The notes under the pieces are model-generated. The model saw only the letters and a list, made by a program, of their open reading frames with translations. It was not told where the DNA came from and made no database searches. Position numbers and translations under genes: made by a program. 64,000 nucleotides of DNA from Desulfovibrio piger. Lineage in GTDB: Bacteria; Desulfobacterota; Desulfovibrionia; Desulfovibrionales; Desulfovibrionaceae. Of the stretch, positions 24,512-61,728 are shown in pieces; the first letter of the stretch is position 1, and each line of letters begins with the position of its first letter. The DNA lies in contig NZ_LT630450.1 in NCBI RefSeq assembly GCF_900116045.1, positions 717,501 through 781,500 on the forward strand, given 5' to 3'.

Positions 24512-24598
24512 TGGTGCCGAAGGGGAGAGTCGAACTCCCACTCCGTTGCCAGAACTAGACCCTGAACCTAGCGTGTCTACCAATTCCACCACTTCGGC
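24512..24598 (-). tRNA. tRNA-Leu (anticodon CAG)
   Basis: An 87-base class II tRNA with encoded CCA. The acceptor stem is GCCGAAG/CTTCGGC. The D-arm holds GGAATTGGTAGAC. The anticodon stem CTAGG/TCTAG has loop TTCAGGG, giving CAG. A long variable arm and the T-arm GGGAGTTCGACTCTCCC complete a normal cloverleaf. Confidence 0.95.
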
Positions 24599-27754: not shown

Positions 27755-28122
27755 GTTTCCTCCCTTGTGTGCCGAGGAACGCACACGATGCCGCCCCTTA
27801 TGCCGGGACTGACAGCGCCTGTCAATTGTTCTTTTTTGCACAGTTGCCTGCCCGCGTTTCTTCGGAGATCCTTTCACAGAAACCATGGTTGACTACAATT
27901 CATGAAATAAAAATTATCCAACGAATCAAACCTATTAAAAACAAACGTCGTACCCGGATGTCTTTTCCCTCCGGCCGCCCACATCCTGGATGGCTCCCAA
28001 TTTTCTGGAATAGCGGCAAATTTGCCTCATAAAATACTTAACAATGTAAAATAACTATATTTTTTATTTTATGTGTGGCATTTTTGTTTAAAATTATCAA
28101 ACAAAAATATTTTTTTATTGAA
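27755..28122. other. AT-rich intergenic region
   Basis: Divergent promoter region of the zinc-ribbon gene and the DASS transporter gene. From about 27890 onward it is strikingly AT-rich compared with the coding DNA. No gene is seen. It holds ATCAAA at 28096, an inverted copy of the TTTGAT motif found upstream of the flavoprotein operon. Confidence 0.6.
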
Positions 28123-28151
28123 TTGACAAAACAGACCGCCTAACATGATAA
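28112..28151 (+). promoter_or_regulatory. Promoter of the DASS transporter, with shared upstream element
   Basis: TTGACA at 28123-28128, a 17-base spacer and TGATAA at 28146-28151 form a good sigma-70 promoter. The overlapping stretch TTTTTATTGA(A/T)TTGACAA is repeated almost exactly at 30834, upstream of the first flavoprotein. Confidence 0.7.
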
Positions 28152-28305
28152 CTTTTTCACATAATGGCCGCGAACAACGGCCATACAGGGAGAAACTGGC
28201 GGGGCGCATGGTATGCGGACAGACATGTCCCCTCCTGTATTGGATGACCGAAGGAACAGCCGCCTTTGCGGCGGTATGTAGCGATCTCTCAAGAAGGAAC
28301 GTATC

Positions 28306-29769
28306 ATGGCTGGAAAAGAATCCACCCCCAAGCGCTTCTCGGCGCCTGCCTATTATCTGCACGCTGTCGTCTGTCTGCTCATCATGTTCGGCTTTGGCCA
28401 GCTACCGCCCGTAGAACCGCTGACGCCCCTGGGGATGAACCTCATCGGCATCTTTCTGGGCGTGCTCTACGGCTGGGTCTGTATCGAGATCGTCTGGCCC
28501 AGTCTGGCCGGCCTGCTGGCCCTGATGCTCATCGGCGGCATGAAGCCCATGATGCTGCTCAACAAGAGCTTTGGTGACCCCGTGGTCCAGATGATGTTCT
28601 TCATCTTCGTCTTCTGCGCCACCATCAGCCATTATGGCCTGTCCAAATTCATTTCCCTGTGGTTCATCACCCGCAAGTTCGTTGCCGGGCGTCCCTGGGT
28701 GTTCACCTATACCTTTCTGGGCTCCATCTTCATCCTGGGCGGCCTGACCAGCGCCTCTCCGGCCGCCATCATCGGCTGGAGCATCCTCTACGGCGTCTGT
28801 GAGGTCTGCGGCTTCAAGAAGGGCGACGGCTACCCCACCATGATGGTGTTCGGCATCGTGTTCGCCGCCCAGGTGGGCATGTCCCTCATTCCCTTCAAGC
28901 AGGCGGCCCTGACCGTGTTCAGCGCCTATGAGACCATGTCCGGTGTGGGCATCGACTACGCCAAGTACATGCTCATCGCCCTGCTCATCTGCGCCGTGTG
29001 CTCGCTGCTCTTCATCGTCATGGGCAAGTACATCTTCCGCCCTGACATGGGCAAGCTCGTCCATCTGGATGTGAGCAAGCTGGACAAGGACGGCAGCCTG
29101 GTCCTTTCCCGTGTGCAGAAGATCATCCTGGCTTTCCTGTTCCTGCTGGTCATCCTGCTGCTGGCTCCCAACTTCATGCCCAGGGACTTTTTCCTGACCC
29201 GCTTCCTCAAGGGCATCGGCAATACCGGCATCGTCATCCTGCTGGTGACGGTCATGGCGGCCATCAAGGTGGAAGGCAAGGCCCTGCTGAACTTCAAGGT
29301 CATGGTGGACTCCGGCGTCACCTGGGGCATCGTGCTGCTGCTGGCCTTCGTGCAGCCCCTGTCCGGTGCCATGGCCAGGCCCGAGAGCGGCATCACCCCT
29401 TTCCTGATGATGGCGCTTGATCCCATCATTTCCGGCGGTACCCCGCTGACCTTTGCCCTGTTCCTGGGCCTGGCCGCCACCCTGCTGACCCAGGTCATGA
29501 ACAACGGCGCCGTGGGTGTGGCCCTGATGCCCATCATCTACAGCTACTGCCAAGCGGCCGGTGTCAGCCCCGAACTTCCGCTGATCATGGTGGTCATGGG
29601 CGTGCACTTTGCCTTCCTCACGCCTGCCGCCAGCGCCAGTGCGGCCCTGCTGCACGGCAACGAATGGTCGGATTCCAAGGCCATCTGGAAGACGGCCCCT
29701 GCTGTCATCCTCATGTCCTATCTGGTCACCGCGGCCATCACGATCATCGTAGGCAAGGCCATCTTCTAG
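28306..29769 (+). CDS. SLC13/DASS-family anion transporter
   Basis: An inner-membrane secondary transporter of 487 residues with about 12 hydrophobic segments. It belongs to the divalent-anion:sodium symporter (SLC13/DASS) group, whose members carry di- and tricarboxylates, sulfate or sulfonates. The two hairpin regions bear GGLTSASPAAI and LTPAASASAALLHGN, near the SNT-like substrate motifs. The substrate cannot be assigned. AAGGA precedes the ATG by seven bases. The stop codon shares the bases CTAG with the stop of the convergent LysR gene. The shared promoter element ties it to the flavoprotein genes. Confidence 0.87.
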   Translation: MAGKESTPKRFSAPAYYLHAVVCLLIMFGFGQLPPVEPLTPLGMNLIGIFLGVLYGWVCIEIVWPSLAGLLALMLIGGMKPMMLLNKSFGDPVVQMMFFIFVFCATISHYGLSKFISLWFITRKFVAGRPWVFTYTFLGSIFILGGLTSASPAAIIGWSILYGVCEVCGFKKGDGYPTMMVFGIVFAAQVGMSLIPFKQAALTVFSAYETMSGVGIDYAKYMLIALLICAVCSLLFIVMGKYIFRPDMGKLVHLDVSKLDKDGSLVLSRVQKIILAFLFLLVILLLAPNFMPRDFFLTRFLKGIGNTGIVILLVTVMAAIKVEGKALLNFKVMVDSGVTWGIVLLLAFVQPLSGAMARPESGITPFLMMALDPIISGGTPLTFALFLGLAATLLTQVMNNGAVGVALMPIIYSYCQAAGVSPELPLIMVVMGVHFAFLTPAASASAALLHGNEWSDSKAIWKTAPAVILMSYLVTAAITIIVGKAIF

Positions 29770-30794
29770 TCTCCCTTGCGGGACGTGGCCTTCCTGCGTG
29801 GGCGGGCAGCCTTGGGCTGTCCGCCTTTTTGCGTCTGCCCGGCAAGGAACGTGGGCGCAAAGGGCTGGGCCGCAAGCTCGGTGAAATGCCGCCGCAGGGC
29901 GTCCATCAGGGCCTGCGCCTGGGGGCTGATATGCTTGTGCCTGCGCACAAGGATGCCATACAGCACGTTGGGCAGCAGGTGATCCAGAGGGCAGCTGACG
30001 ATGGAGCTCCAGTCCGAACCGAACATGGTCGCCCGGTAGCACAGTTCGTCCATGATGGCCACCCCGACGTCACAGCGGACGAACTGCATGATGAGGTGGT
30101 AGTTGTTGACGCTGATGACGGTATTCTTTTGCAGACGCTGCGCCGCATATTGCAGGGTCGGTTTCGGCTGCTCGTTTTCTTCCAGCGATGTCTGGAAGAC
30201 GACGAAGGGCAGGCGCTCCAGATCCGCCTCTGTGGGGATGGGCGGGATATCCCAGATGCTGTCCTTGCGCATGACGAGCAAAGGGCGGGCCTTCAGCAGG
30301 ATCTCCATGGTATCCTGCGTGGGCAGGGCCGTCATGCCTGTAAGGCCGAAATCAAGGCGGGATTCCTTGACCGCCTGGACGATCTCGGAAGAAAGGGCAC
30401 GCTGGATACGGATGTTGACCTGCGGATTTTCCGCGCGGAACGCGGCGATGGCATCCACGGCCATGATGGCCACCGGCAGGGTCGCCCCCAGGAAGATGTC
30501 GCCCTGCAGGCGGCCGTCTGATGTCCCCACGGCGGAGCGCATGCTTTGCAGGGTCTCGAAGGTCGTGATGGTCCAGCCCAGCAGTTTTTTGCCTTCAGGT
30601 GTTATCTGAAGGCTTTTTTTGTACCTGTCGAAAAGGACCGTATTGAGCTCGGTCTCCAGTGAACGCAGCTGATAGCTGATCGTTGAGGGATTTCTGTGCA
30701 TCAGCTCTGCGGCCCTGCGCACGCTCCCTGTTTTGGCGACATAATAAAACCCCCGTAACCATTGAAGAAAATCACCATTCAACTCCGGGATCAT
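29766..30794 (-). CDS. LysR-family transcriptional regulator
   Basis: A 342-residue regulator. The N-terminal winged helix-turn-helix is clear (FYYVAKTGSVRRAAELMHR followed by NPSTISYQLRSLETEL). The remainder is the two-lobed co-inducer-binding domain, and the C-terminal 25 residues are a Lys/Arg-rich tail (KAARPRRKATSRKGD). The ATG at 30794 has GGAGG five bases upstream; a TTG at 30806 is less likely. It is divergent from the flavoprotein operon and convergent with the transporter, the classic position for a local activator of both. Confidence 0.92.
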   Translation of the reverse strand: MIPELNGDFLQWLRGFYYVAKTGSVRRAAELMHRNPSTISYQLRSLETELNTVLFDRYKKSLQITPEGKKLLGWTITTFETLQSMRSAVGTSDGRLQGDIFLGATLPVAIMAVDAIAAFRAENPQVNIRIQRALSSEIVQAVKESRLDFGLTGMTALPTQDTMEILLKARPLLVMRKDSIWDIPPIPTEADLERLPFVVFQTSLEENEQPKPTLQYAAQRLQKNTVISVNNYHLIMQFVRCDVGVAIMDELCYRATMFGSDWSSIVSCPLDHLLPNVLYGILVRRHKHISPQAQALMDALRRHFTELAAQPFAPTFLAGQTQKGGQPKAARPRRKATSRKGD

Positions 30795-30808
30795 CACGTC
30801 CTCCAATG

Positions 30809-30873
30809 TTTGATTTATTGAAACGATATTTGATTTTTATTGATTTGACAATACAGCAGTTTCGCATGATTTT
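30809..30873 (+). promoter_or_regulatory. Divergent control region with LysR-type repeats and promoter
   Basis: TTTGATTTATTGA starts at 30809 and TTTGATTTTTATTGA at 30829, giving copies 20 bases apart on one helix face. TTGACA at 30845-30850 is followed after 16-17 bases by a weak -10 (TGATTT). A weak -10 with upstream direct repeats is what an activator-dependent LysR promoter looks like. The stretch 30834-30856 matches the DASS transporter promoter at 21 of 23 positions. Confidence 0.65.
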
Positions 30874-30962
30874 TTATTCACAAACGCCGGGCCAGCCACT
30901 GAGGATTGCCCGACCGGCCCGGCGATGACTGTCCGCTAAAAAATCACAACCAGGATATCGTT

Positions 30963-32636
30963 ATGAAGATGACCAAACACCCTCTCGGCACATTGGTGGA
31001 AACCGACGTGCTCGTGATCGGCTCCGGTGCTTCGGGCTGTGGTGCGGCGCTCGGCGCGCGTGACCAGGGCCTCGATGTAGTGCTGATGGACAAGGGCAAG
31101 CTGGAAAGCTCCGGCTGTATCGGCGGTGGCAATGACCATTATATGGCCGTCCTGGATGAGCCCGGTGAAGCCCACGACACCGTGGAAGACCTCATCAAGT
31201 TCTATGCCAAGCCCCTCAACGGCTGGTCGCCTGCCATGCTGCAGAACGGCTGGTACGCCCACATGAAATATTTTCTGGATGTGCTGGGCAAGGCGGGTGT
31301 GCAGTTCAGCAAAAAGGCTGACGGCACCTACCTGCGCACCCAGGGTTTTGGTCAGCCGGGCCGCTGGTGGGTCCATATCGCCAACGGCATGACCATCAAA
31401 CGCGCCATGGCCCGCATCGTGCGTGATGCCGGCATCAATACGCTCGACAACGTCATGGCGGTCAAGATCCTCACCGACAACGGCAAGGCCTGCGGTGCGC
31501 TGGGTTGGAATGTCCGCACCGGCGAATTCGTGCTGGTTCGCGCCAAGACCGTTGTTTCGGCCCAGGGTCGTTCGGCCACGCGCGGCACGGATAACTCCAC
31601 CCACAATCCCTTCAACGTCTGGATGTACCCCTATAATACCAGCGCCGGCGTGGTGCTGGGTTATGATGTGGGCGCCGCCGTGACCGAACTGGACACCTAC
31701 CAGCGTGCCACCATGCTGCCCAAGGGCTATGGCTGCCCCGGCATGAACGGCATCAACAGCTCCGGTGCGCACGAGATCAATGCCCTTGGCGAACGCTTCA
31801 TGGGCAAGTACGACCCCATGATGGAAAACGGCGTGCGCAACAACCAGATCCAGGGCACCTTCCAGGAACAGATGGAGGGATCCGGCCCGCCATTCTACAT
31901 GGACATGCGCCATGTGGACAAGGATGTGGTGCATGAGCTGCAGTATGTGCTCATGCCCGGCGACAAGGCCACCTTCGGTGACTGGGCCGACTGCACCGGC
32001 ACCGACTTCCAGCACAAGCTGCTGGAAGTGGAGATCGGCGAACTGATCTTCGGCGGCACCATCGCCGTCAACGACACCTTCGAGACCACTGTGCCCAATC
32101 TTTTCTGCGGCAGCATCTTCCTGTACTGCTCCGGCGCCATGTGCGGCGGCTACGAAGCCGGTCGCCAGGCCGGCATGCGGGCCGCCGGCATCACCGAAGC
32201 CGGCAAGATCAATGAAGACCTGGCCGCCAGCGTCAAGAAGGACGTGTTCGCCCCCATGCAGGTGCCCGCCGACGACGGCATCAGCTACAAGGAGATCGAA
32301 CAGGCTACCCGGAACGTCATGAACTACTATATGGGCTTCCGCCGCTCCATGGCCGGCATGGCCCGCGCCCTGGAAAAGATCCGCTTCCTGTCCGGCCAGG
32401 CCGACCGCCTGCACGCCGACACCCTGCGCGACCTCATGCGCTGTCACGAGTCCCGCGACATCCTGACGGTCTGTGAACTGGCCATCCAGGCCACCATGGA
32501 ACGCAAGGAGACCGGCCGCTGTGTCTACAAGCTGCGGGATTACCCCGAGCTGAACCCCGACATGGCCAAGCCGCTGCTGCTGATCCGCAGCGAAGATGGC
32601 CCCCGTTTCCAGTGGGGCAAGGCACCGCTGCTGTAA
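30963..32636 (+). CDS. APS-reductase/fumarate-reductase-like FAD flavoprotein (first)
   Basis: A 557-residue cytoplasmic flavoprotein with no signal peptide. The FAD motif is VIGSGASGCGAALGARDQG at residues of about 18-36, and the C-terminal FAD contact is VPNLFCGSIFLY. The segment GRWWVHIANGMTIKRAM resembles the GRWQIMINGESYK region of AprA, the alpha subunit of adenylylsulfate reductase. The catalytic HxMGG histidine of succinate dehydrogenase/fumarate reductase is not present; the aligned place reads GELIFGG. The substrate is therefore unlikely to be handled exactly as in SdhA/FrdA. The ATG at 30963 has AGGA eight bases upstream. It is first in the LysR-linked gene row. Confidence 0.82.
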   Translation: MKMTKHPLGTLVETDVLVIGSGASGCGAALGARDQGLDVVLMDKGKLESSGCIGGGNDHYMAVLDEPGEAHDTVEDLIKFYAKPLNGWSPAMLQNGWYAHMKYFLDVLGKAGVQFSKKADGTYLRTQGFGQPGRWWVHIANGMTIKRAMARIVRDAGINTLDNVMAVKILTDNGKACGALGWNVRTGEFVLVRAKTVVSAQGRSATRGTDNSTHNPFNVWMYPYNTSAGVVLGYDVGAAVTELDTYQRATMLPKGYGCPGMNGINSSGAHEINALGERFMGKYDPMMENGVRNNQIQGTFQEQMEGSGPPFYMDMRHVDKDVVHELQYVLMPGDKATFGDWADCTGTDFQHKLLEVEIGELIFGGTIAVNDTFETTVPNLFCGSIFLYCSGAMCGGYEAGRQAGMRAAGITEAGKINEDLAASVKKDVFAPMQVPADDGISYKEIEQATRNVMNYYMGFRRSMAGMARALEKIRFLSGQADRLHADTLRDLMRCHESRDILTVCELAIQATMERKETGRCVYKLRDYPELNPDMAKPLLLIRSEDGPRFQWGKAPLL

Positions 32637-32678
32637 TGTCCGCGGTATCCTCATGCACTTTCCAAGGAGTTTGTCATC

Positions 32679-34379
32679 ATGCCCCCGAGATATAGCCGTG
32701 AAATAACGCGCCCCGTCGTGCTGGGCGCCCAGCTTAAAGAGCAGTTCCGCACCTCGCCCTGCGAAACCTCCTGCCCCATCGGCAATTCCATCCAGAAGAT
32801 GAACTCGCTCATCGAAAAAGGCCAGTTCACCGAAGCCCTGCGCTACCTGCGTGCCAAAAACCCCTTCCCGGGCATCACCGGCCGCGTCTGTCCCCACTTC
32901 TGCATGGATGCCTGCAACCGCAAGGAAATGGACGGCTGCCTGAACATCCGCGCTCTGGAACGCGCTGCCGAGACCTTTGCCGAACGCGGGCACGTCTTCT
33001 TCAAACGCCGCCCCGCCACCGGCAAGAAAGCCGCCGTCATCGGCGGCGGCCCCGCCGGCCTGACGGCCGCCTACTTCCTGGCCCTGCTGGGCCACGAAGT
33101 CACCATCTATGAAGCCGAACCCCTGCTGGGCGGCGTGCCCCGCTACGGCGTGCCGAACTTCCGCCTGCCCCGCGATGTGGTGGACCGCGAAGTGGGCCTG
33201 GTGCTGGAAGCCGGCGTGCGCGCCCGCGTCAACACCCGCGTGGGTGTGGACATCACCATGGAAGAGATCTCCGCCCGCTACGATGCCGTTATCGTGGCCA
33301 CCGGTGTGCCCGCTGAAAACAGCCTGCCCATCCCCGGCGCCGAAAAGGCCGTCAAGGCCGTTGAATTCCTGCGTGCCGCCGCTCTGGGCCAGAACACCGG
33401 CAAGATCGGCAAGAACGTCGTCATCATGGGCGGCGGCGGCGTGGCCTTTGACTGCGCCTTCACTGCCCGCCGCCTTGGCGCCGAGAACGTCCATGTGATC
33501 TGCCTGGAAAAGGCCGGCGAGATGCGCGCTCCTGCCGAAGACCTGGAACTGGCCGCCAAGGAAGGCGTGCATGTGCACAATTCCTGCACCATGTCCGCCA
33601 TCCGCACCGAAGGCGACAAGGTCACCGGCGTGGACTACTTCGAAGTCAAGGACTGCCACTTTGACGAAAAGGGCAAGCTGACCCTGGAAGCCGTGCCCGG
33701 TGGCGAGCATGTCCTGGAATGCGACACCGTGATCTTCGCCGTGGGCATGAAGACCGATCTGGCTTTCCTGGGTGAAAACGCCGGCGGTCTGGAGCTGACC
33801 CCCCGCAACTGGATCAAGGTGGATGAAAGCCAGCGTACCTCCAGGGCCGGTGTCTTCGCCGCCGGTGACGTGTCCGCCGGACCCGCCTCCATCGCCCGCG
33901 CCGTGGGCGACGGCCGCCGTGCCGCCTTTGCCGTGCACCAGATGCTGACCGGCACCAGCAGCCGCGTCTACGCCCTGAACGAAGAAAACATGATCGAAGA
34001 CTGCGACGCCATGGGCAGCGATACCGCTCCCTATGTGGTGCAGTACGCCGACATCTACGGCATCGCCCAGTATGAGAGCGTTCCTTCTGAAAAGGAAGCC
34101 GAAAATGCCTGTACCAAGGCTTTTGCCGAACTCAACCTGGGCCTGACCATCGAACAGGCCCAGAAGGAAGCCGCCCGCTGCTTCCACTGCGGCCACTGCA
34201 AGGCCTGTGGTACCTGCGTCGAGGACTGCCCCGGCTATGTGCTGGAGATGCGTCCTTACCAGGAAGCGGAACGTCCCGAAATGATGCATGGCGAAGAGTG
34301 CTGGCACTGCGCCAACTGCCGCACCAGCTGCCCCTGCAGCGCCATCGGCTTCACATTCCCCCTGTTTATGCAAGTCTAG
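32679..34379 (+). CDS. GltD/DsrL-like NAD(P)H oxidoreductase with added Fe-S clusters
   Basis: A 566-residue iron-sulfur flavoprotein. The N-terminal domain carries paired cysteines (SPCETSCPIG, GRVCPHFCMDACNRKEMDGC) like glutamate-synthase small subunits. Then come an FAD fold (VIGGGPAGLTAAYFLALLG) and an NAD(P)H fold (VVIMGGGGVAFDCAFTARRL). The C-terminal 70 residues add ferredoxin-type motifs (CFHCGHCKACGTCVEDCP and CWHCANCRTSCPC). This architecture is that of DsrL-type NAD(P)H oxidoreductases. It probably moves electrons between NAD(P)H and the neighbouring flavoproteins. Spacing to the first flavoprotein gene is 42 bases with AAGGAG, so they are cotranscribed. Confidence 0.83.
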   Translation: MPPRYSREITRPVVLGAQLKEQFRTSPCETSCPIGNSIQKMNSLIEKGQFTEALRYLRAKNPFPGITGRVCPHFCMDACNRKEMDGCLNIRALERAAETFAERGHVFFKRRPATGKKAAVIGGGPAGLTAAYFLALLGHEVTIYEAEPLLGGVPRYGVPNFRLPRDVVDREVGLVLEAGVRARVNTRVGVDITMEEISARYDAVIVATGVPAENSLPIPGAEKAVKAVEFLRAAALGQNTGKIGKNVVIMGGGGVAFDCAFTARRLGAENVHVICLEKAGEMRAPAEDLELAAKEGVHVHNSCTMSAIRTEGDKVTGVDYFEVKDCHFDEKGKLTLEAVPGGEHVLECDTVIFAVGMKTDLAFLGENAGGLELTPRNWIKVDESQRTSRAGVFAAGDVSAGPASIARAVGDGRRAAFAVHQMLTGTSSRVYALNEENMIEDCDAMGSDTAPYVVQYADIYGIAQYESVPSEKEAENACTKAFAELNLGLTIEQAQKEAARCFHCGHCKACGTCVEDCPGYVLEMRPYQEAERPEMMHGEECWHCANCRTSCPCSAIGFTFPLFMQV

Positions 34380-34386
34380 CATGATG

Positions 34387-34417
34387 AAAAGGGCGGATCG
34401 CACGATCCGCCCTTTTT
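34387..34417 (+). terminator. Terminator after the GltD-like gene
   Basis: AAAGGGCGGATCG pairs with CGATCCGCCCTTT around a very short loop, followed by TT. It would separate the first two genes from the porin, or set their relative levels by partial termination. Confidence 0.75.
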
Positions 34418-34522
34418 AAGATTGCACCAGCCCCTGAGGCTCCCGTTTGGCCTCCGGGTCTGTTTCTGCACCCAAATTTCCGGGCTTTGCCCGGCAATCA
34501 CTGTCTCTCTGGAGGAAGGATT

Positions 34523-36046
34523 ATGAAAAGGATCTGGTGCCTGCTGCTGGCGGCGGCCATGGTGACGGGAGCCGCCCAGGCAAGCCATGCTGTAGACTTC
34601 AAGGCCAAGGGAGTATGGCTGGCGAGTTTCCAGTATGGCCAGAACGGCAACTTCACCAATGGCGGGCATACCGGCTATGACCCGAGCGAAGACGAATTCG
34701 AGGCCCGGTCCCGTGTCCGCCTGGTCATCGACGCCGTGGCTGACGAAAACCTTTCCGGTCAGGTCTACTTTGAAATCGGCAAGTCCATCTGGGGCAAGGC
34801 CGACAATCCCCAGGGCGGTATGGCCCTGGGGGCTGACGCATCCATCGTGAAGCTCAAGCGAGCTTTCATCGACTGGCGTGTGCCCGATACGGACCTCAAG
34901 CTGCGCATGGGCATCCAGGGCATCGGTCTGCCCTACATGGCCATGGGCGGCCCTACGGTCTTCCAGTCCGACGTGGCCGCCATCACCGCCAGTTACGTTT
35001 TCAATGAGAACGCTGCCCTGACGGCCTTCTGGGCCCGTCCGTACAATGACAACTATGTGGGCGATGCCGACGGCTACCAGAAGAATTTCATGGACAACAT
35101 GGACATGGCCGGTCTGATGGTGCCCCTGACCTTTGACGGCGTCAAGCTGACCCCCTGGGGCATGTTCGCCTCCATCGGCTCCAACACGTTCCGCAAGAAC
35201 GACAACTACGTCGGCAACAAGATCAACGGCGTCAACGGCGGCTATGCCCTGAGCGGCCTGTTCCCCCTGCGTGCCGACCTGCTGAGCCACAAGGAAAAGC
35301 TCAATGCCTACGGCACGGCCTGGTGGGGCGGCCTGAGCGGCGAGATAACCAAATGGGATCCCTTCCGCATCGCCTGGGACTTCTCGTACGGCAATGTGAC
35401 CTATGACGACGGCTCCCTGAACCGCTCCGGCTGGCTGGCCGGCCTGCTGCTGGAATACAATCTGGACTGGACCAAGCTGGGCCTGTTCGGCTGGTACAGC
35501 TCCGGTGACGACGACAACGTGGGCAACGGTTCCGAACGCCTGCCCACCATCAGCAACGACTACGGCCCCTGCAGCTTCTCCGGCACCTTCATGGGCCCGG
35601 ACATCAATGGTCTGGAGCGTGACCGCGTCATCGGCAACAACCTGGTGGGCACCTGGGGCGTGGGCTTCCGCCTGAAGGACATGAGCTTCCTGGAAGACCT
35701 CAAGCACACCTTCCACATCAGCCTGCTCGGCGGAACCAACGATCCCGGCATCCTGAAAAAATACCACGAGCGCACCGGCCAATGGATGGCTCCCAACAAT
35801 CCCGAAGGCACCACCAAGGTCGGCCGCGAGAACCTGTACCTCACCACGCGTGACTATGCCCTGGAGTTCGGCCTGCTCAACGAATACAAGATCTATGACA
35901 ACCTGCAGGTCAATCTGGAAGCCAGCTACATCGCCCTGTGGCTGGACAAGTCGGATGACGTCTGGGGCCAGAGCCTGACCGGCGGCGACCATCGCGACAT
36001 CCGCGACGCCTGGAACGTGAGCGTGCTGTTCATCTACTCTTTCTAG
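34523..36046 (+). CDS. Outer-membrane porin of the Desulfovibrio homotrimeric type
   Basis: A 507-residue beta-barrel porin. A signal peptide (WCLLLAAAMVTGAAQASHA) is cut near residue 24, strands alternate throughout, and the protein ends with the aromatic C-terminal strand VLFIYSF required for barrel insertion. The body, for example FEARSRVRLVIDAVADENLSG, matches the trimeric porins common in sulfate reducers. GGAGGAAGGA precedes the ATG at 34523. Its position inside the flavoprotein cluster suggests it admits the cluster's substrate across the outer membrane. Confidence 0.88.
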   Translation: MKRIWCLLLAAAMVTGAAQASHAVDFKAKGVWLASFQYGQNGNFTNGGHTGYDPSEDEFEARSRVRLVIDAVADENLSGQVYFEIGKSIWGKADNPQGGMALGADASIVKLKRAFIDWRVPDTDLKLRMGIQGIGLPYMAMGGPTVFQSDVAAITASYVFNENAALTAFWARPYNDNYVGDADGYQKNFMDNMDMAGLMVPLTFDGVKLTPWGMFASIGSNTFRKNDNYVGNKINGVNGGYALSGLFPLRADLLSHKEKLNAYGTAWWGGLSGEITKWDPFRIAWDFSYGNVTYDDGSLNRSGWLAGLLLEYNLDWTKLGLFGWYSSGDDDNVGNGSERLPTISNDYGPCSFSGTFMGPDINGLERDRVIGNNLVGTWGVGFRLKDMSFLEDLKHTFHISLLGGTNDPGILKKYHERTGQWMAPNNPEGTTKVGRENLYLTTRDYALEFGLLNEYKIYDNLQVNLEASYIALWLDKSDDVWGQSLTGGDHRDIRDAWNVSVLFIYSF

Positions 36047-36108
36047 CCAGCCCTCCTGAACACGGGCACGGCCGTATCTCCACTGCGGCCGTGCCCAAAG
36101 GAACGATC

Positions 36109-36351
36109 ATGATCGAAAGAATCGATGCCGCTATCTGTACCGGCTGCGGCGCCTGCGTGGAAAAGTGTCCTCTGGACGCCCTGCGGCTCGGTGAGGACGG
36201 CAAAGCCTTCATCGCCTATGCCGACGACTGCATGACCTGCTATATCTGCGAACGGCTGTGCCCGTCAGGCGCCATCTTCGTGCACCCGTTCCGCGAAGAA
36301 CTGCCGCCTGTTTTCCCCGATATCCCCAAGGCTCTGGGCGGAGGACTGTAA
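36109..36351 (+). CDS. AprB-like two-cluster ferredoxin
   Basis: An 80-residue electron carrier with two [4Fe-4S] motifs, CTGCGACVEKCP and CMTCYICERLCP. The second half (CYICERLCPSGAIFVHPFRE) resembles the C-terminal cluster region of AprB, the beta subunit of APS reductase, including the following hydrophobic tail, but it is much shorter than AprB. AAAGGA precedes the ATG at 36109. Only one base separates its stop codon from the next flavoprotein gene, the same B-then-A order as aprBA. Confidence 0.85.
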   Translation: MIERIDAAICTGCGACVEKCPLDALRLGEDGKAFIAYADDCMTCYICERLCPSGAIFVHPFREELPPVFPDIPKALGGGL

Positions 36352-36352
36352 G

Positions 36353-38074
36353 ATGAACATGCATCACATCACGACGGATGTCCTGATCCTGGGCGGCGGT
36401 TCCGCCGGTCTGTGGGCCGCCTACCGCTGTTCCGAGCTGGCGCCTGAAGCCCGCATCTGCATCGTGGACAAGGGCCCCCGCGACTGGGGCGGCCTGATGA
36501 CCATGGCGGGCGGCGATTTTGAAGCCGTCCTTCCCCCGGACGACGTGGATGAATGGGTCCGGGATTTCGTCTATTATTTCGACGGCCTGTGCGACCAGAA
36601 CCTCATGGAGGAGATACTGCGACGCTCTGCCGACCGTCTGCATGACTACGAGCGCTTCGGCTGCGAATTTTTCAAAAAAGAAGACGGCAGCATGAAATAC
36701 GTCCCCCAGCGGGGACTGGAACATGTGAAGCTGTACCCGGCCCAGCTCAAGGGCCGCGGCGGCGAACTGATGGTCAGGAACATCGTGCGCCAGCTCAGGC
36801 AACGCTCCGTGGAGCGGATGGGGCGCATCCTGCTGACCGAACTGCTGCAGCAGGACGGCCGTGTTTGCGGTGCCCTGGGCTTCGATACCATCAATGGTGA
36901 TTTCTACCGCCTCGATGCCAGGGTGGTCATCGCCGCCAGCGGCATGGGCGGCTGGAAGACCTCGTACGGCAAGAACACGCCCACCGGCGAGACCATGCAG
37001 ATGGCCTATGAGGCCGGTGCCGTCCTGCAGAACCTGGAATTCGCCCGCGTCTGGAACATGCCCCGTCTCTTCGGCTGGGAAGGCCAGACCGTGCTGATGC
37101 CCCTGGGCGCACGCTTCGTCAATGCCGAAGGCGAGCCCTTCATGGAGCGCTACTCCCCCGTGCTGGGCTCCAATACCGACCCCCACTACACCACCATGGC
37201 CATGGCCATGGAGATCCGGGCAGGCCGCGGCCCCATCACGTTCGACCTGAGCCGCATCCAGCAGGAGAACCTGATCCTGCTGCGCCCCCAGAACGGCTGG
37301 CAGAAGCTGAACTACGACAAGCTTTCCGCCCTGGGGCTGGACCTGTTCCGGGATTCCACGGAGTGGGTGCCCCAGATGACCGTTTCTTACGGCGGTCTGC
37401 GGGCCGATGCCTGGGGCAACACCAATCTGGAAGGCCTGCTGGCTGCCGGTACGGCCCGGGCCACCGAGCCCGGTGTCTACGCCGGCGGTTTTGCCCTGAT
37501 GACCACGTCCGTGCTGGGCCATATGGCCGGCGAAAACGCGGCCCGCCTGCTCCAGACACTGCCGGAAGTCAGGAGCGACCTGTCCGACGCGGGGCTCGCC
37601 GCCCGCCGGCAGGCCCTGTTCGCGCCTCTGGGCAAGGAAGGCCTTACGCCCAAGGAAGTGCTGACCTCCATCCAGAAAACGGTCTTCCCCTACGGGGTCT
37701 CCATCCTCAAGAACGAGCGCAGCCTGCAGGCCGCGCTCAAGGAACTGGAACGTATCCGGGAAGAAGACCTGCCGCGCATGGTGGCGGCGGATCCCCACTA
37801 CCTGCTCAAGCTGCATGAGACCCGTGGTGTGGCCTTTGTCAGTGAAATGTACGTCCGGGCCTCGCTGGAACGCCGGGAGACCCGTGCGGGGCACTACCGG
37901 GAAGATTATCCCGTGCGCGACGACGCCCAGCTGGCCTGGCTCTGCCTGCGCAAGGATGCGGACAGCACGCCGGAATTCTTCCGCGTCCCGGTGCCTCTGG
38001 AGCAGTACAAGCATCCTGTGACCCGGTACTACCAGGACAACTTCGCTTTCCCGGTCAACGAAAGCGTCAAGTAA
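36353..38074 (+). CDS. APS-reductase/fumarate-reductase-like FAD flavoprotein (second)
   Basis: A 573-residue cytoplasmic flavoprotein. The FAD motif is LILGGGSAGLWAAYR at residues of about 11-25, and the segment ARFVNAEGEPFMERYSP is typical of the SdhA/AprA superfamily. Near the substrate site the HxMGG motif is replaced by TVSYGG. It is distinct from the first flavoprotein in the row rather than a recent duplicate. It is translationally close to the AprB-like ferredoxin gene and probably forms a heterodimer with it. The substrate is unknown. Confidence 0.82.
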   Translation: MNMHHITTDVLILGGGSAGLWAAYRCSELAPEARICIVDKGPRDWGGLMTMAGGDFEAVLPPDDVDEWVRDFVYYFDGLCDQNLMEEILRRSADRLHDYERFGCEFFKKEDGSMKYVPQRGLEHVKLYPAQLKGRGGELMVRNIVRQLRQRSVERMGRILLTELLQQDGRVCGALGFDTINGDFYRLDARVVIAASGMGGWKTSYGKNTPTGETMQMAYEAGAVLQNLEFARVWNMPRLFGWEGQTVLMPLGARFVNAEGEPFMERYSPVLGSNTDPHYTTMAMAMEIRAGRGPITFDLSRIQQENLILLRPQNGWQKLNYDKLSALGLDLFRDSTEWVPQMTVSYGGLRADAWGNTNLEGLLAAGTARATEPGVYAGGFALMTTSVLGHMAGENAARLLQTLPEVRSDLSDAGLAARRQALFAPLGKEGLTPKEVLTSIQKTVFPYGVSILKNERSLQAALKELERIREEDLPRMVAADPHYLLKLHETRGVAFVSEMYVRASLERRETRAGHYREDYPVRDDAQLAWLCLRKDADSTPEFFRVPVPLEQYKHPVTRYYQDNFAFPVNESVK

Positions 38075-45911: not shown

Positions 45912-46862
45912 CTAAAACGTGTTCCAGAAGGCGGGATGGAGCGGCTGCAGACCCTTTTGGGCCGCGACCATGTCCATATGGAGCATCCCCAGTGCCAGAG
46001 CGTCCAGATCGGGAGCGGTGTCGCGCTCGCGCAGATCCACCGTCGGGCAGTAGGTCTTGCAGCGGGTGCACCAGTCAAGGCGTTCGCCCAGGGCATTCCC
46101 TGCTTCTTTCAGGATCTCCATGACGCCTGCCCCTTCTTCACCGCAGAAGGGGCAGGCCCCGCGGCGGAAGGTCCAGTCCGTACCGCACAGCGAGCAGTGG
46201 AGGTGCTTCTTGCCGCCACCACCCGCCAGGAACGCGTTTTTTTCATCAAAAACAGGCCGGTCCAGATACGCTATGGAAGGCCCGGATCCGCAGACGGGGC
46301 AATATCCCTGCCGCCAGGTACCTTCCACGTTCCAGGGAGCCTCCTTTCCGTCCCCATGCGGCGACAGCTCCACCAGAGCCCGCAGGACGGGCCCCAGCAT
46401 GAAGCTGAACGCAAACAGCAGCACCTGTACGGGAACATCCAGATGCGCCGCGGTCTTTTCCACACTCTCGGCCGTCTCATTGAGCACGGCCTCAGCCAGA
46501 GCCACCGGGGCCTCCGGGCCCTGCGCGGCGTCCACGAAGAAGGCCCGCAGCTTCGCTTCGTGCGGCCTGATGATCTCCTGGGCCGCAAGCAGCGGGATCA
46601 TGGCCTCGGCCGCAGCCCTGAGGGCTGTCCCGATTCCGGCAAGCGGCACCTCCGCCAGCAGCGGATAGCCCTGGGCGGCCCGTTCACGCTGCATCGCAGG
46701 CAGACGGACGCCGGCGGCTTCCAGCAGGGGCTTGAGCTGTGCGGGCAACGCGGCCCGGGCAGCCAGCAGCGGGGCAAAGGCTTGCAGGACAGGGGACAGG
46801 ACAGGACGGCGGGCAAGGATACCGCTGACGGTTTCTTCCACGCTTTGGCAGGATACGGCCAT
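45912..46862 (-). CDS. fdhE: Formate dehydrogenase accessory protein FdhE
   Basis: A 316-residue cytoplasmic maturation factor that acts on the formate dehydrogenase catalytic subunit before Tat export. The rubredoxin-like zinc/iron-binding CXXC pairs are seen in CPVCGSGPSIAYLD, CSLCGTDWTFRRGACPFCG and CTRCKTYCP, the normal FdhE pattern. It lies between fdhB and the cytochrome c3 gene, 68 and 46 bases away. Confidence 0.92.
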   Translation of the reverse strand: MAVSCQSVEETVSGILARRPVLSPVLQAFAPLLAARAALPAQLKPLLEAAGVRLPAMQRERAAQGYPLLAEVPLAGIGTALRAAAEAMIPLLAAQEIIRPHEAKLRAFFVDAAQGPEAPVALAEAVLNETAESVEKTAAHLDVPVQVLLFAFSFMLGPVLRALVELSPHGDGKEAPWNVEGTWRQGYCPVCGSGPSIAYLDRPVFDEKNAFLAGGGGKKHLHCSLCGTDWTFRRGACPFCGEEGAGVMEILKEAGNALGERLDWCTRCKTYCPTVDLRERDTAPDLDALALGMLHMDMVAAQKGLQPLHPAFWNTF

Positions 46863-46930: not shown

Positions 46931-47590
46931 TTAGCCGAAGGTCGCGTATTCGTAATAAAACTCGGCTTCCTCCGCAAGCAGGTAGATCACGCTGACTTCG
47001 TCAGGATCTGCCAGGAATGCCTTGGGATGGGTCTTTTTGACGACCTCTAGCCGTTTTTTGGCAAGGGCCAGGATCTCGTCCCGCTCGCCAAAGACCATGG
47101 CCCCGGTGGGGCAGGTCTTGACACAGGCAGGCAACATCCCGGCTGCGATGCGGTCGGAACACATGTCGCACTTGGCAAGGGTCTTTTTGACCTTGTCATA
47201 CCTGGGGATATTGTACGGACAGGCATGGATGACGTCTGCCATGTCCTGTTCACTGAGCTTCCGGATCTTGTCGGTCACCAGCACGGCGCCGGTCTTGGGA
47301 TCCTTGATCATGGCGCCGGGCACGGCCATGTCGGCCACATCCACGCAGATGGGCGTGACACAGTGACGGCACTGGTCCGGGAAGAAGTTCCAGACCACAT
47401 TGCCCTGCTTGTCCAGATGCTCATGGAAACGAACGATCTTGTAGTTGTTGGGGTTCAGATCCGGCGGATTCTGATGGCTCCCCCGCTGCTTGGTCTCGTT
47501 GGCGGGCAGATCGTGCCATTCCTTGCAGGCAAGCTGACAGCCGCGGCATGCCGTGCAGCGTGTGGTATCTACTAAAAATGCTTTCGGCAT
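46931..47590 (-). CDS. fdhB: Formate dehydrogenase iron-sulfur subunit
   Basis: A 219-residue electron-transfer subunit with four ferredoxin-like cysteine groups: CTACRGCQLACK, CRHCVTPICVDV with a later CP, CDMCSDRIAAGMLPAC and CVKTCP. It carries electrons from the Mo/W site to cytochrome c3. No signal peptide is seen; the subunit is presumably exported bound to the Tat-targeted alpha subunit. AAGGAG before the ATG at 47590 supports the start. It follows the alpha gene by 48 bases. Confidence 0.94.
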   Translation of the reverse strand: MPKAFLVDTTRCTACRGCQLACKEWHDLPANETKQRGSHQNPPDLNPNNYKIVRFHEHLDKQGNVVWNFFPDQCRHCVTPICVDVADMAVPGAMIKDPKTGAVLVTDKIRKLSEQDMADVIHACPYNIPRYDKVKKTLAKCDMCSDRIAAGMLPACVKTCPTGAMVFGERDEILALAKKRLEVVKKTHPKAFLADPDEVSVIYLLAEEAEFYYEYATFG

Positions 47591-47638: not shown

Positions 47639-50600
47639 TTAAGCAATTTCCGTCAACTTGTCCGCCTTGCGGATGTTCACACAACAGGCCTTCGCTTCGG
47701 GGATGGTCGTGTTGGGGTCACAGGCCACAATGGTCAGACGGTTGGTGGAGTCGCCGCATTTCGGCGTCGTCCAGCCATAAGCAAAGGGCATACCGATCAG
47801 ATGGACAGTCTTGCCCATGACCTTGAACGGACGGATGCGGACCGTCACCATGGCAATGGCTTCCACCTTGCCGCGGGCGCTTTCCACGATCACGCCGTCA
47901 CCGTTGGCGATGCCCTTTTCCTTGGCCAGCTCGGGGCTCATTTCCACATAGAGCTGGGGCTCGGCTTCAAGCAGGTTGGGCACATTGCGGGTCTCACCGC
48001 CGCCACACCAGTGTTCCGTCATGCTGTAGGTCGTCAGCACGATGGGATACTTGGGATCGGCCGCCTTGGCCAGTTTGTCCATATCACTGGTATGGAACTT
48101 GTAGACCGGGCTGCTCAGCTGCTTGGAGAAGGGATGCTGCGCCACGGGCGTTTCCGCCGGTTCGTAATGCTCGGGGAACGGGCCGTCCAGACGGCCGGGG
48201 CCGTACAACTGGGCATAGCCGTCTGTTGTCATGATATAGGCCAGCTTGCCGTTCTTGGTATCGGCCTGCGGTGCCCAGGGACCGTCCGGCACGTCGCCCA
48301 CCCATTTCTTGCCGTCCCATTCGATGACGGCCTTCTTGGGATTGTAGGGCTTGCCGTTGAGGTCCACGGAGGCACGGTTGTACAGGATGCGCCGGTTGAC
48401 CGGCCAGCACCACGACCAGTTGGGATACAGGCCGATGGCGGCCTGCATGGGCGTCTGGGTCGGGTCGCGCCGCTTGGACTTGTTGCCTTCTTCCTCCGTA
48501 TAGCTGCCGGTGTACAGCCAGTTGAGGGACGAGGTGGTGCCGTCGGCCTGCAAATTGCCGAAGGCCGGGACCAGGTCGCCCTTTTTGTACAGACGGTTGC
48601 CGATCTTGGTATCGGCCCAGAAGAAGCCGTTGATGCGGCGGGTCCATTCCTCGGGATCGTACTTTTCGGGCCAGTTCATCTTCAGCAGGGCTTCGGGCAG
48701 CTTGCCGCCTTCGGCCTTGTACATTTCACGCAGCTTGTTGATCAGCGGCACGAACATGTCAGCGAAGTTGCGGGCCTCGCCCGCCGGTTCCACGGCCTTG
48801 TCAAACCACAGCAGCCAGCGGCCGCTGTTGCTGATGGTACCGGCCTTTTCCACGCGATGGGCCGACGGCAGCAGGAAGACTTCGGTCTTCATCTTCTTGG
48901 GGTCGACGCCGGGACGGTGCCAGTTGTCCGTGGTTTCGGAATTGTGCAGCTCGGCGCAGACCATCCAGTCCAGATTGTCCAGGGCCTTGCGCATCTTGTT
49001 GGTGTTGGGGAAACTGTTCATGGGGTTGACGCCGAAGACAAAACCACCCTTGATCTTGCCGTGGTACATCTTGTCCATGACATACATGTACGAATAGTCC
49101 GCTCCAGGCTCGCCCTTGGGCAGCAGGCCGTAGCAGAAGTCGTTTTCCGGCTTTGCCTCTTCACCGAACCAGCCCTTGAGCAGGCTGGCGAAGTACTTGG
49201 GCCGGTTGCCCCACCAGTTGGCACTGTTGGGGATCTTGGTGACCGGGGTATTGGCCTTGTTGAACTGGGCCAGGGTCTGCCAGGGCGCCAGCGGCAGGCC
49301 GATATACCCGGGCAGCACATGGTACAGCAGGGCATGGTCCGTGGAGCCCTGCACATTGGGCTCGCCACGCAGGGCGTTGATGCCGCCACCGGCCACACCG
49401 ATATTGCCCAGCAGCAGCTGCACCAGCGTGGAGCAGCGGATGTTCTGCACGCCCACGGTATGCTGGGTCCAGCCCAGTGCGTACAGGATGGTGCCGGCCT
49501 TGTCGGGCTTGCCCGTGGCACTGAACTGCTTGTAGACCTTGAGCAGGTTTTCTTCGGAAACACCCGTGATGTCGGAGACGTTCTTCAGGGTGTACCGCGA
49601 GTAATGCTTCTTCATCAGGTTGAAGACGCAGCGCTCGTGCTTCAGCGTGGCGTCACGCAGCGGGGCGCCGTCCGGGCCCTTTTCGAAGCCCCACTTGCTC
49701 TGGTCATACTTGCGCGCCTTGGCGTCATAGCCGCTGAAAAGGCCGTCCTTGAAGTCATAGCCCTTGCCGACGATGAACGAGGCGTTGGTATAATTGATAA
49801 CGTAATCGTGGAAATAGCTGTTCGATTCCAGGATGTAATTGACCATACCGCCCAGGAACGCGATATCCGTACCGGAGCGCAGCGGCACATGATAATCGCA
49901 ACGGGCGGACGTGCGGGAGAACTTGGGGTCGACGTGGATAAGCGCCGCGCCGTTGTCCTTGGCCCGCATGATCCATTTGAACGAAACAGGATGATGTTCA
50001 GCGGCATTGCTGCCGATAATAAGAACCACGTCGGCATTCTTGATGTCGATCCAGTGGTTGGTCATAGCACCGCGTCCGAACGACTCTGCCAGAGCCGCAA
50101 CAGTGGGGCTGTGTCAGACCCGTGCCTGGTGGTCCAATTGGACAACACCCAGGCCGCGCATGGCTTGATGGATAACGGCGCATTCCTCGTTGGAGGCGTG
50201 CGAGGTGCCCATCATGAAAATGCTTTCCAGACGGTTGACCGTCTGGCCCTTGCTGTTTTTGAGGATCAGATCCTTGTCACGCGTATCCTTCACGCGACGG
50301 GCGATCTTTTCCAGCATCCATCCCCAGTCCTTTTCTTCCCACTTTTCACTGTAGGGCGCCCGGTACAAGGGCTTGGTGAGGCGATGCGGATTCGTGTACA
50401 TGGAGAACAGGGCGGCACCCTTGGCGCACAGGGAACCTTCGTTGACGGGGAAATCGGGATCCCCCTCTGTGCTGACGAGCTTGCCGTCGCGCACATAAGC
50501 GATGACCTGACAGCAGACGGCGCAGAACGGACAGATCGTGATGACTTCCTTTGCGCCCTCTATCTTGAGACTCCCGGCATAGGCCTGGGCCTCGCCGAGG

Positions 50601-50680
50601 TTGAAACCGAACTGGCTGAGCGAGAGGCAGAGGGCACTCACGCCTGCCAGTTTCAGGAATCCCCTTCGTGTGTAGCTCAT
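47639..50680 (-). CDS. fdhA: Formate dehydrogenase catalytic subunit, selenocysteine-containing
   Basis: The catalytic subunit of a periplasmic molybdo- or tungsto-formate dehydrogenase, 1013 residues with the in-frame TGA at 50116-50114 read as selenocysteine (residue 189). The context ARV-U-HSPTVAALAESFGRG is the usual FDH active site. The twin-arginine signal is YTRRGFLKLAGVSA, with cleavage near residue 33. The first Fe-S cluster is held by CPFCAVCC and a later Cys. Splitting the gene at the TGA would leave two halves each missing essential parts. AGGAGAGG precedes the ATG. It is the first gene of fdhA-fdhB-fdhE-cytochrome c3. Confidence 0.94.
50073..50116 (-). promoter_or_regulatory. Putative SECIS element for selenocysteine insertion
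   Basis: Immediately after the TGA (as in TGACACAGCCCC) the mRNA can fold into a short stem with CTG/CAG at its base and wobble pairs above. The apical loop is near GCGGCTCT. Its position fits the bacterial SECIS that SelB reads. The fold is drawn by eye. Confidence 0.6.
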
Positions 50681-61408: not shown

Positions 61409-61498
61409 TGGCGGAAGGAGGGGGATTTGAACCCCCGGAAGGCGTAAACCTCCAGCGATTTTCAAGATCGCCGCAATCAGCCGCTCTGCCATCCCTCC
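61409..61498 (-). tRNA. tRNA-Ser (anticodon TGA), element-encoded
   Basis: A 90-base class II tRNA with encoded CCA. The acceptor is GGAGGGA paired with TCCTTCC (one G-T). The anticodon stem GCGAT/ATCGC holds loop CTTGAAA, giving TGA. The variable arm is TGGAGGTTTACGCCTTC. The T-arm is complete. Confidence 0.92.
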
Positions 61499-61502
61499 GT
61501 TT

Positions 61503-61577
61503 TGGTGGAGCCAGCGGGACTTGAACCCGCCTCACCGCCGTGCAAGGACGGCGCTCTCCCTGATGAGCTATGGCCCC
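61503..61577 (-). tRNA. tRNA-Ala (anticodon TGC), element-encoded
   Basis: A 75-base tRNA with encoded CCA. The acceptor is GGGGCCA paired with TGGCTCC. The anticodon loop CTTGCAC gives TGC. The T-arm is GCGGGTTCAAGTCCCGC. It lies four bases from tRNA-Ser. Confidence 0.93.
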
Positions 61578-61653
61578 AGATCCAGGCGGTCTGGCCTGAT
61601 GACCGCCTGGGATGCCACCGGGGAAAGTACAGAATGACCCGGCGGGAAAATCA

Positions 61654-61728
61654 TGGTCGGAGCGGCGGGGATCGAACCCGCGACCGCCTGCTCCCAAAGC
61701 AGGCGCGCTGCCTCTGCGCTACGCTCCG
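61654..61728 (-). tRNA. tRNA-Pro (anticodon TGG), element-encoded
   Basis: A 75-base tRNA with encoded CCA. The acceptor is CGGAGCG paired with CGCTCCG. The anticodon loop TTTGGGA gives TGG. The T-arm is GCGGGTTCGATCCCCGC. It is the first tRNA of the three in transcription order. Confidence 0.93.

Follow-up and report, generated by a model that had tools for sequence, protein, structure and literature searches.

We propose that seven genes at positions 28306-38074 of the window, the whole 64,000-nucleotide stretch of Desulfovibrio piger DNA analyzed here, form a LysR-controlled regulon for the uptake of an organic anion and its cytoplasmic reduction with electrons from reduced nicotinamide adenine dinucleotide (NADH), a reading to which we give an even chance. 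The gene set, its co-conservation in relatives, a shared promoter element unique in the genome, the domain make-up of the proteins and the absence of the NadB/SdhA catalytic residues from its two flavoproteins are computed observations. The window corresponds to positions 717501-781500 of the source genome, a single contig of 2,807,531 bases with a completeness figure of 100%. The host is probably a gut sulfate reducer, because the relatives found for it in the named collection belong to the Desulfovibrionaceae, several bearing gut names, and because its genome encodes a canonical AprA (1164.1 bits on the AprA model TIGR02061).

All seven genes named in the original prediction were found. The first (28306..29769, + strand) encodes a DASS-type anion carrier of 487 residues (Pfam CitMHS, 44.5 bits, above the cut-off). 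The divergent LysR-type regulator is encoded on the opposite strand (29766..30794, −) and contains HTH_1 and LysR_substrate domains; its longest frame extends to 30806 (TTG), and the likely start is the ATG at 30794. The + strand then carries a flavoprotein of the SdhA/AprA superfamily, FP1 (30963..32636; 557 residues; FAD_binding_2); a GltD/DsrL-like oxidoreductase predicted to use NADH or its phosphate, NADPH (32679..34379; 566 residues), with N- and C-terminal iron–sulfur domains (Fer4_20, Pyr_redox_2 and a C-terminal Fer4_7); an outer-membrane porin (34523..36046; 507 residues; DESULF_POR1, 445.3 bits against a cut-off of 250); an 80-residue ferredoxin with two [4Fe-4S] motifs (36109..36351); and a second flavoprotein of the SdhA superfamily, FP2 (36353..38074; 573 residues; FAD_binding_2 and Succ_DH_flav_C). 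The span originally assigned to the cluster began at 28112, which is not the start of a gene but the beginning of the promoter element described below.

The set recurs in other genomes beyond chance, which supports the co-conservation that the original prediction called for and its view of the carrier and the redox enzymes as one unit. Our family sample comprised 199 genomes, host included, and the main conservation count covered 22 loci in the genomes of 21 relatives (loci and genomes carry L and G numbers), some of the stretches ending at contig ends. We preferred tblastn counts because a simple gene caller missed genes at some loci, such as FP2 in L148; L154 and L157, duplicates of the L011 and L009 contigs, were excluded, and L007 and L012 (cut) stand outside the 22 loci. 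A full-length FP1 match with 66–99% identity was present in 19 of the 21 genomes, the match in G562 (66%) holding an in-frame TGA, and the GltD-like gene adjoined FP1 in all 19. LysR was on the same stretch in 17 of these 19 relatives, adjoining in 12 and about 3.5 kb off in 5, and the carrier in 15; in one of these, L180 (11660-13900), the carrier appears as two separated pieces (81% identity over 99 residues and 70% over 374), and may be interrupted. The ferredoxin and FP2 were on the same stretch in 10 of the 19, and 2 of the 9 relatives without FP2 on the stretch carry an FP2 orthologue on another contig (G450 and G542). In L179 (5680-5880), two short C-terminal FP2 pieces, 76 and 78% identical, lie between the GltD-like and carrier genes; since only these remnants remain, FP2 was lost there while the rest was kept. 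In the family sample, an FP1 match of at least 66% occurred in 18 genomes, an FP2 match of at least 64% in 13 and both in 11, compared with 1.2 expected (hypergeometric 6e-12, which is not an independent-sample probability because the genomes are related). These counts identify as the core FP1 with the GltD-like protein and, in most cases, the carrier, and as an accessory unit FP2 with the ferredoxin. The idea of a complete route as a fixed set did not hold, as the ferredoxin and FP2 are off the stretch in 9 of the 19 relatives; nor is the porin a general part, since only 7 of the 21 genomes have one within the cluster or at its end, and the window porin is a member of DESULF_POR1.

Beyond the family, an FP1 match at 1e-60 was found in 8 of 395 genomes of the phylum, host included. 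Among the best 80 loci of an FP2 scan of the whole collection, 14 (L006-L019) had at least 41% identity and the others at most 30%; plasmid records contained 343 distant FP2 matches, all below 60% identity, and FP2 relatives of 57–58% occur among Peptococcales proteins. We found no description of the gene set in the titles and abstract openings listed by our literature searches, which do not establish its absence from print. The cluster combines known folds and is apparently an undescribed variant of SdhA/AprA-type reductases.

We then compared the sequence 5′ of the carrier gene with that 5′ of FP1. In the best ungapped stretch, 32 of 45 bases are identical, the best of 20 shuffles giving 28. 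A degenerate 22-bp element containing TTGACA, built from one site in each region, lies 5′ of the carrier (28113..28134, +) and 5′ of FP1 (30835..30856, +). With up to 3 mismatches allowed, the 2.8-Mb genome holds no other match, and none at all for the backward control; as the element was built from these two sites, the fit there is by construction, and the result is that there are no further sites. In relatives, a 23-bp form of the element precedes FP1 with 23/23 matching bases in L006, L010, L011 (and its duplicate L154) and L149, 22/23 in L102, and 19/23 in L140 and L148; these scores of 19–23 represent 8 loci in 7 relatives, L154 and L011 being one contig. Before the carrier it scores 23 in L149, 19 in L006 and L010, and 17 in L011. 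The best score among 405 genes unrelated to the cluster was 16, and FP1-type genes of 23–49% identity scored no more than 16. Of all 19 relatives, 9 have a copy at 19/23 or better, including L179 and L188, which were absent from the earlier set. The predicted shared control is thus supported by a genome-unique element before both the carrier and FP1.

An imperfect palindrome, TGTTTGAT...ATCAAACA, was seen by eye in the window 8 bases upstream of the 23-bp form, and recurs near the same place in most of the relatives' aligned upstream regions. LysR proteins usually recognize sites of the T-N11-A type, and the palindromes 5′ of the carrier (28085..28103, +) and between LysR and FP1 (30807..30825, +) are probably LysR recognition sites. 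In L006 (2251-4186; Desulfovibrio sp. An276), two adjacent LysR genes are 57% and 69% identical to the window LysR. A terminator scan found a hairpin of 12 pairs 3′ of the carrier (29800..29826, +) and no terminator-like site on the + strand from the FP1 start to the FP2 end; such sites are as common by chance, numbering 8 in the region compared with 7.8 in shuffles.

The original prediction called both flavoproteins AprA-like; a high-identity match to a characterized reductase would have counted against it. In a tree of 68 proteins, rooted at the midpoint and with long branches for AprA and some other rows, FP1 and the related FP1b, FP1c and FPx form one clade (support 98/97) that stands beside AprA (91/82), and FP2 falls in a separate clade (100/100). 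FP1 is therefore AprA-like by descent, and FP2 by fold only. Both missed the cut-offs of the models for AprA (TIGR02061, cut-off 641.75 bits; FP1 99.5, FP2 70.0), SdhA/FrdA (TIGR01812, 567.3; 72.8 and 147.4) and NadB (TIGR00551, 452.75; 61.7 and 119.5). For Succ_DH_flav_C, FP2 is above the cut-off and FP1 just below it (20.5 against 20.8). Solved sequence relatives of both proteins are distant; the best for FP1 is the Methanothermococcus 3′-phosphoadenosine 5′-phosphosulfate (PAPS) reductase 8a8o (E 1.3e-37). For both proteins, the cut-offs of the listed NCBIfam models were thus missed, and there is no close solved relative. The predicted model of FP1 is poor (mean predicted local distance difference test score, pLDDT, 60.0; 228 of 557 residues below 50). 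That of FP2 is usable (mean pLDDT 79.6); its best fold match is also 8a8o, and it matches PAPS reductase, SdhA and AprA alike, that is, the superfamily at large.

At the residue level, we took FHPT, RGEG, a second His and NR to be the catalytic His/Arg set of NadB and SdhA. The set is present in the genome's own NadB and absent at the aligned places in both FP1 and FP2. The genome's AprA reads QGLSAINTYL at the place where FP1 reads GGGNDHYMAVL. At the place of Archaeoglobus fulgidus R265, the substrate-binding arginine of AprA, FP1 has M in the HMMER alignment and a gap in that of MAFFT, but an invariant R248 stands at a distance of four residues; in FP2, a variable position nearby is occupied by R, K or V. 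Judged by these scores and residues, neither FP1 nor FP2 fits the familiar enzymes that share their fold. We rejected adenosine 5′-phosphosulfate (APS) or PAPS reductase as a candidate on model scores, and fumarate reductase or aspartate oxidase on model scores together with the missing catalytic residues. The likeness to SdhA/FrdA and L-aspartate oxidase is that of the superfamily and FAD_binding_2, with Succ_DH_flav_C in FP2; the cluster differs from these enzymes in the missing His/Arg set and in having no membrane-anchor gene among its genes. Besides the canonical AprA at 1751357, the host has a second AprA-like gene (G000:C1:2366325-2367992; L109 6245-8358), which passes NF005331 (572.7 bits; cut-off 557) and falls below TIGR02061 (385); directly 3′ of it is a short AprB-like gene (75.3 bits against a cut-off of 135.65).

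These comparisons bear on whether the cluster encodes a relative of AprBA and DsrL that reduces inorganic sulfur compounds or sulfonates, which we consider very improbable. The grouping of FP1 with AprA (with the rooting and long branch noted above) and the DsrL domain order of the GltD-like protein speak for it, and a shifted role for R248, so close to the AprA substrate arginine, is possible. The fold and flavin domain are indeed common to FP1, AprBA and the PAPS reductase (PDB 1jnr, 8a8o). Against this, FP1 is far below the AprA cut-off and lacks an arginine at the aligned place itself, the ferredoxin is not AprB by model, a GltD-like partner adjoins instead, and no sulfonate or sulfite enzyme is among the annotated cluster genes. 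The ferredoxin had been labeled AprB-like, a label that its 33.8 bits on TIGR02060 (cut-off 135.65) does not sustain. A LysR protein, a flavoprotein, an iron–sulfur partner and organic-anion uptake are also features of AsfAB/TcuAB-type systems; PMC4267179 and PMC2864759 describe an Asf set of a LysR protein, a reductase and a ferredoxin in aromatic sulfonate use. In a Cupriavidus metallidurans stretch, a TcuB-like frame comes after a TcuA-like gene, to which identity is only 25% over 157 residues, and there is no annotated AsfA. The suggestion of an inorganic sulfur or sulfonate substrate found no positive support, and the neighboring genes in relatives point to organic acids (see below).

In the GltD-like protein, an N-terminal iron–sulfur domain is followed by the FAD/NAD(P) domains, which about 93 linker residues separate from the dicluster domain at the C terminus. 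This order bears out the GltD/DsrL-like label, DsrL being defined in PMC7596348 by a ferredoxin domain at the N terminus, FAD and NAD domains, about 100 linker residues and a C-terminal dicluster. Unlike DsrL, the protein has no dsrAB beside it, as no dsr gene is among those of the cluster, and it lacks the YRR motif that, in the same account, marks NADP(H) use in DsrL-2 and NfnB; the survey there reports no DsrL in the genus Desulfovibrio. Because CLE replaces YRR at the aligned place, NADH is the likelier donor, rather than NADPH. The GltD-like partners of FP2 paralogues contain a fused ferredoxin-like stretch with 48–71% identity over 35–60 residues to the window ferredoxin, which suggests that the ferredoxin, the GltD-like protein and FP2 form one chain. 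A GltD-like neighbor is also found at distant FP1-type genes (L100, L101, L103 and L153), and L104 and L106 have a small ferredoxin in its place. Electron bifurcation, in which the GltD-like protein would split the electrons of NADH between a high-potential branch, FP1, and a low-potential one, the ferredoxin and FP2, would account for two acceptors in one operon, and solved Nfn proteins are among the nearest sequence relatives of the GltD-like protein. Pairs of FP1 and GltD, however, occur where FP2 is absent, and pairs of an FP2 paralogue and GltD where no FP1 adjoins, and we regard bifurcation, too, as very improbable.

The substrate class was approached through paralogous modules and neighboring genes. 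The host has a second module (L100 2990-9772; G000:C1:1826000-1844000) with FP1b (48%), a GltD-like protein (43–44%), a MatC-type dicarboxylate carrier and a porin, which probably serves another organic anion. In the genus g284 (Mailhella-containing), a single genome may hold as many as five genes of the FP2 type and five of the FP1 type; there (for example, G475, G520, G528 and G548; L140-L159), varied carriers occur, with LysR, Crp-type and sigma-54 activators nearby. Among 18 FP2-paralogue loci, 13 encode a carrier of the TRAP or DASS type no more than three genes further on, one representative having been scanned per carrier cluster, and a tripartite tricarboxylate carrier is near two loci, L147 and L151. 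A Eubacteriales genome, the only one found among 245 searched in its order, and a Blautia genome have FP2 and the ferredoxin beside ATP-binding cassette (ABC) carrier genes; neither, in assemblies given without a completeness figure, has an FP1 match at 1e-40. In the Blautia genome, an FP1-like gene (26%) lies in two pieces upstream of the ferredoxin and FP2 (L014 4109-5892). An esterase adjoins in 7 of the 22 loci, with PF00135 assigned by Pfam in L009, L011, L182 and L191 and the rest identified by similarity, and all seven N-termini look twin-arginine-like by eye. Together, the fusions, the modules with TRAP, DASS, MatC-like and ABC carriers, and the Tat-like esterases suggest NADH-driven reduction of an organic acid, perhaps ester-derived or aromatic, rather than of an inorganic sulfur anion.

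The same modules bear on the direction of the chemistry. The route might instead be oxidative, with the imported acid as the donor, FP1 and FP2 as dehydrogenases and the GltD-like protein passing electrons to NAD+, feeding sulfate reduction. The host's canonical AprA makes sulfate respiration probable, and PMC7596348 describes DsrL-1, which has the same domain order, as serving the oxidation of sulfur, with either NAD+ or NADP+ accepting the electrons. The many FP1- and FP2-type genes per g284 genome, with their differing carriers, would nevertheless resemble a repertoire for electron acceptors, and we consider an oxidative route rather unlikely while keeping it in view.

For the aromatic option, the Eubacteriales locus is informative: FP2 and the ferredoxin are accompanied there by a NitT/TauT-type ABC carrier, an NMT1-type binding protein and an Amidohydro_2 protein, for which 5-carboxyvanillate and gamma-resorcylate decarboxylases are the best solved matches. 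FP1-type relatives in L104-L106 are also near Amidohydro_2 genes (best solved match, aminocarboxymuconate-semialdehyde decarboxylase) and DctM-type carriers, L104 and L105 additionally having a molybdopterin enzyme. FP2 and the ferredoxin could then be a phenolic ring reductase, similar to resorcinol reductase, with FP1 catalyzing a companion step and plant phenolic acids as substrates. A ferredoxin-dependent resorcinol reductase activity is described in PMC10470551, which, in the part describing it, names no gene. The loci concerned are few, however, with FP2 about 51% identical and the FP1-type relatives 32%, and the window cluster has no Amidohydro_2 gene, the genome's four PF04909 matches lying elsewhere; we think this assignment quite unlikely. 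A long shot is the broader conjecture that FP1 and FP2 represent two new reductase families of the cytoplasm, driven by NADH or ferredoxin and acting on diet- or plant-derived acids, that FP2 includes the ferredoxin-dependent phenolic ring reductase whose gene is missing, and that both have multiplied with separate carriers in gut Desulfovibrionaceae. The periplasmic flavin reductases of gut bacteria (flavocytochrome c/UrdA type) offer a functional likeness, being substrate-specific and multiplied in gut anaerobes, whereas FP1 and FP2 have no FMN_bind domain, no export signal by eye, and a GltD-like partner and inner-membrane carriers instead.

In the proposed reductive pathway, the porin would admit the compound to the periplasm, where, in relatives, an exported esterase may release it from an ester, and the DASS-type carrier would import it to the cytoplasm. 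The GltD-like protein would draw electrons from NADH; its C-terminal dicluster domain would pass them to FP1, and the separate ferredoxin would carry them to FP2. FP1 would perform the core two-electron reduction, and FP2 an accessory second reduction, on the FP1 product or a related compound. We infer the electron path from fusions and adjacency and the organic-acid substrate from the neighbors in relatives; the reductive direction and the choice of NADH over NADPH are inferences as well.

Several observations weigh against this proposal. Flavoproteins of the SdhA/AprA fold work in both directions, and no neighbor evidence names the substrate. The ester idea rests on relatives, because the host genome has no PF00135 match. 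The carrier scored 59.6 bits on the DASS model TIGR00785 (cut-off 198.6). Two SNT motifs mark carriers of the VcINDY type, and both are absent; at the aligned places, the window carrier and 13 covering members of its cluster have TSASPAA and NNGAVG or NNGATG. The carrier is related to DASS proteins, though far below the cut-off of their model. As for regulation, the element was not found at 19/23 or better in 10 of the 19 relatives. In five of these ten, LysR and FP1 are about 3.5 kb apart, and two are cut or have no LysR on the stretch; in L186, L187 and L190, LysR adjoins FP1, yet the element is missing. The carrier score in L102, 16/23, equals the background and is no better, and the carriers of L009, L140, L142, L148, L156, L157 and L158 reach only 10–14/23. 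Finally, a consensus promoter scan lists neither copy of the element but does list a promoter-like site on the + strand at 35018, within the porin gene.

Gut sulfate reducers are usually viewed as users of hydrogen, lactate and sulfate. If the proposal is true, they would also convert a set of organic acids from the diet or the host, through a chemistry yet to be assigned, and one regulator, one operator, two enzymes and one carrier make a small testable set for finding the compound.

Elsewhere in the window, a molybdopterin-type frame (47639-50641, −; formate dehydrogenase-like by eye) is split by one in-frame TGA, which would be read as selenocysteine (U176). It is followed by a gene for a 4Fe-4S subunit (46931-47590) and then by an FdhE-domain gene (45912-46841). 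The window also contains a cluster of three tRNA genes (61412-61728, −) and a single tRNA gene (24515-24598, −).

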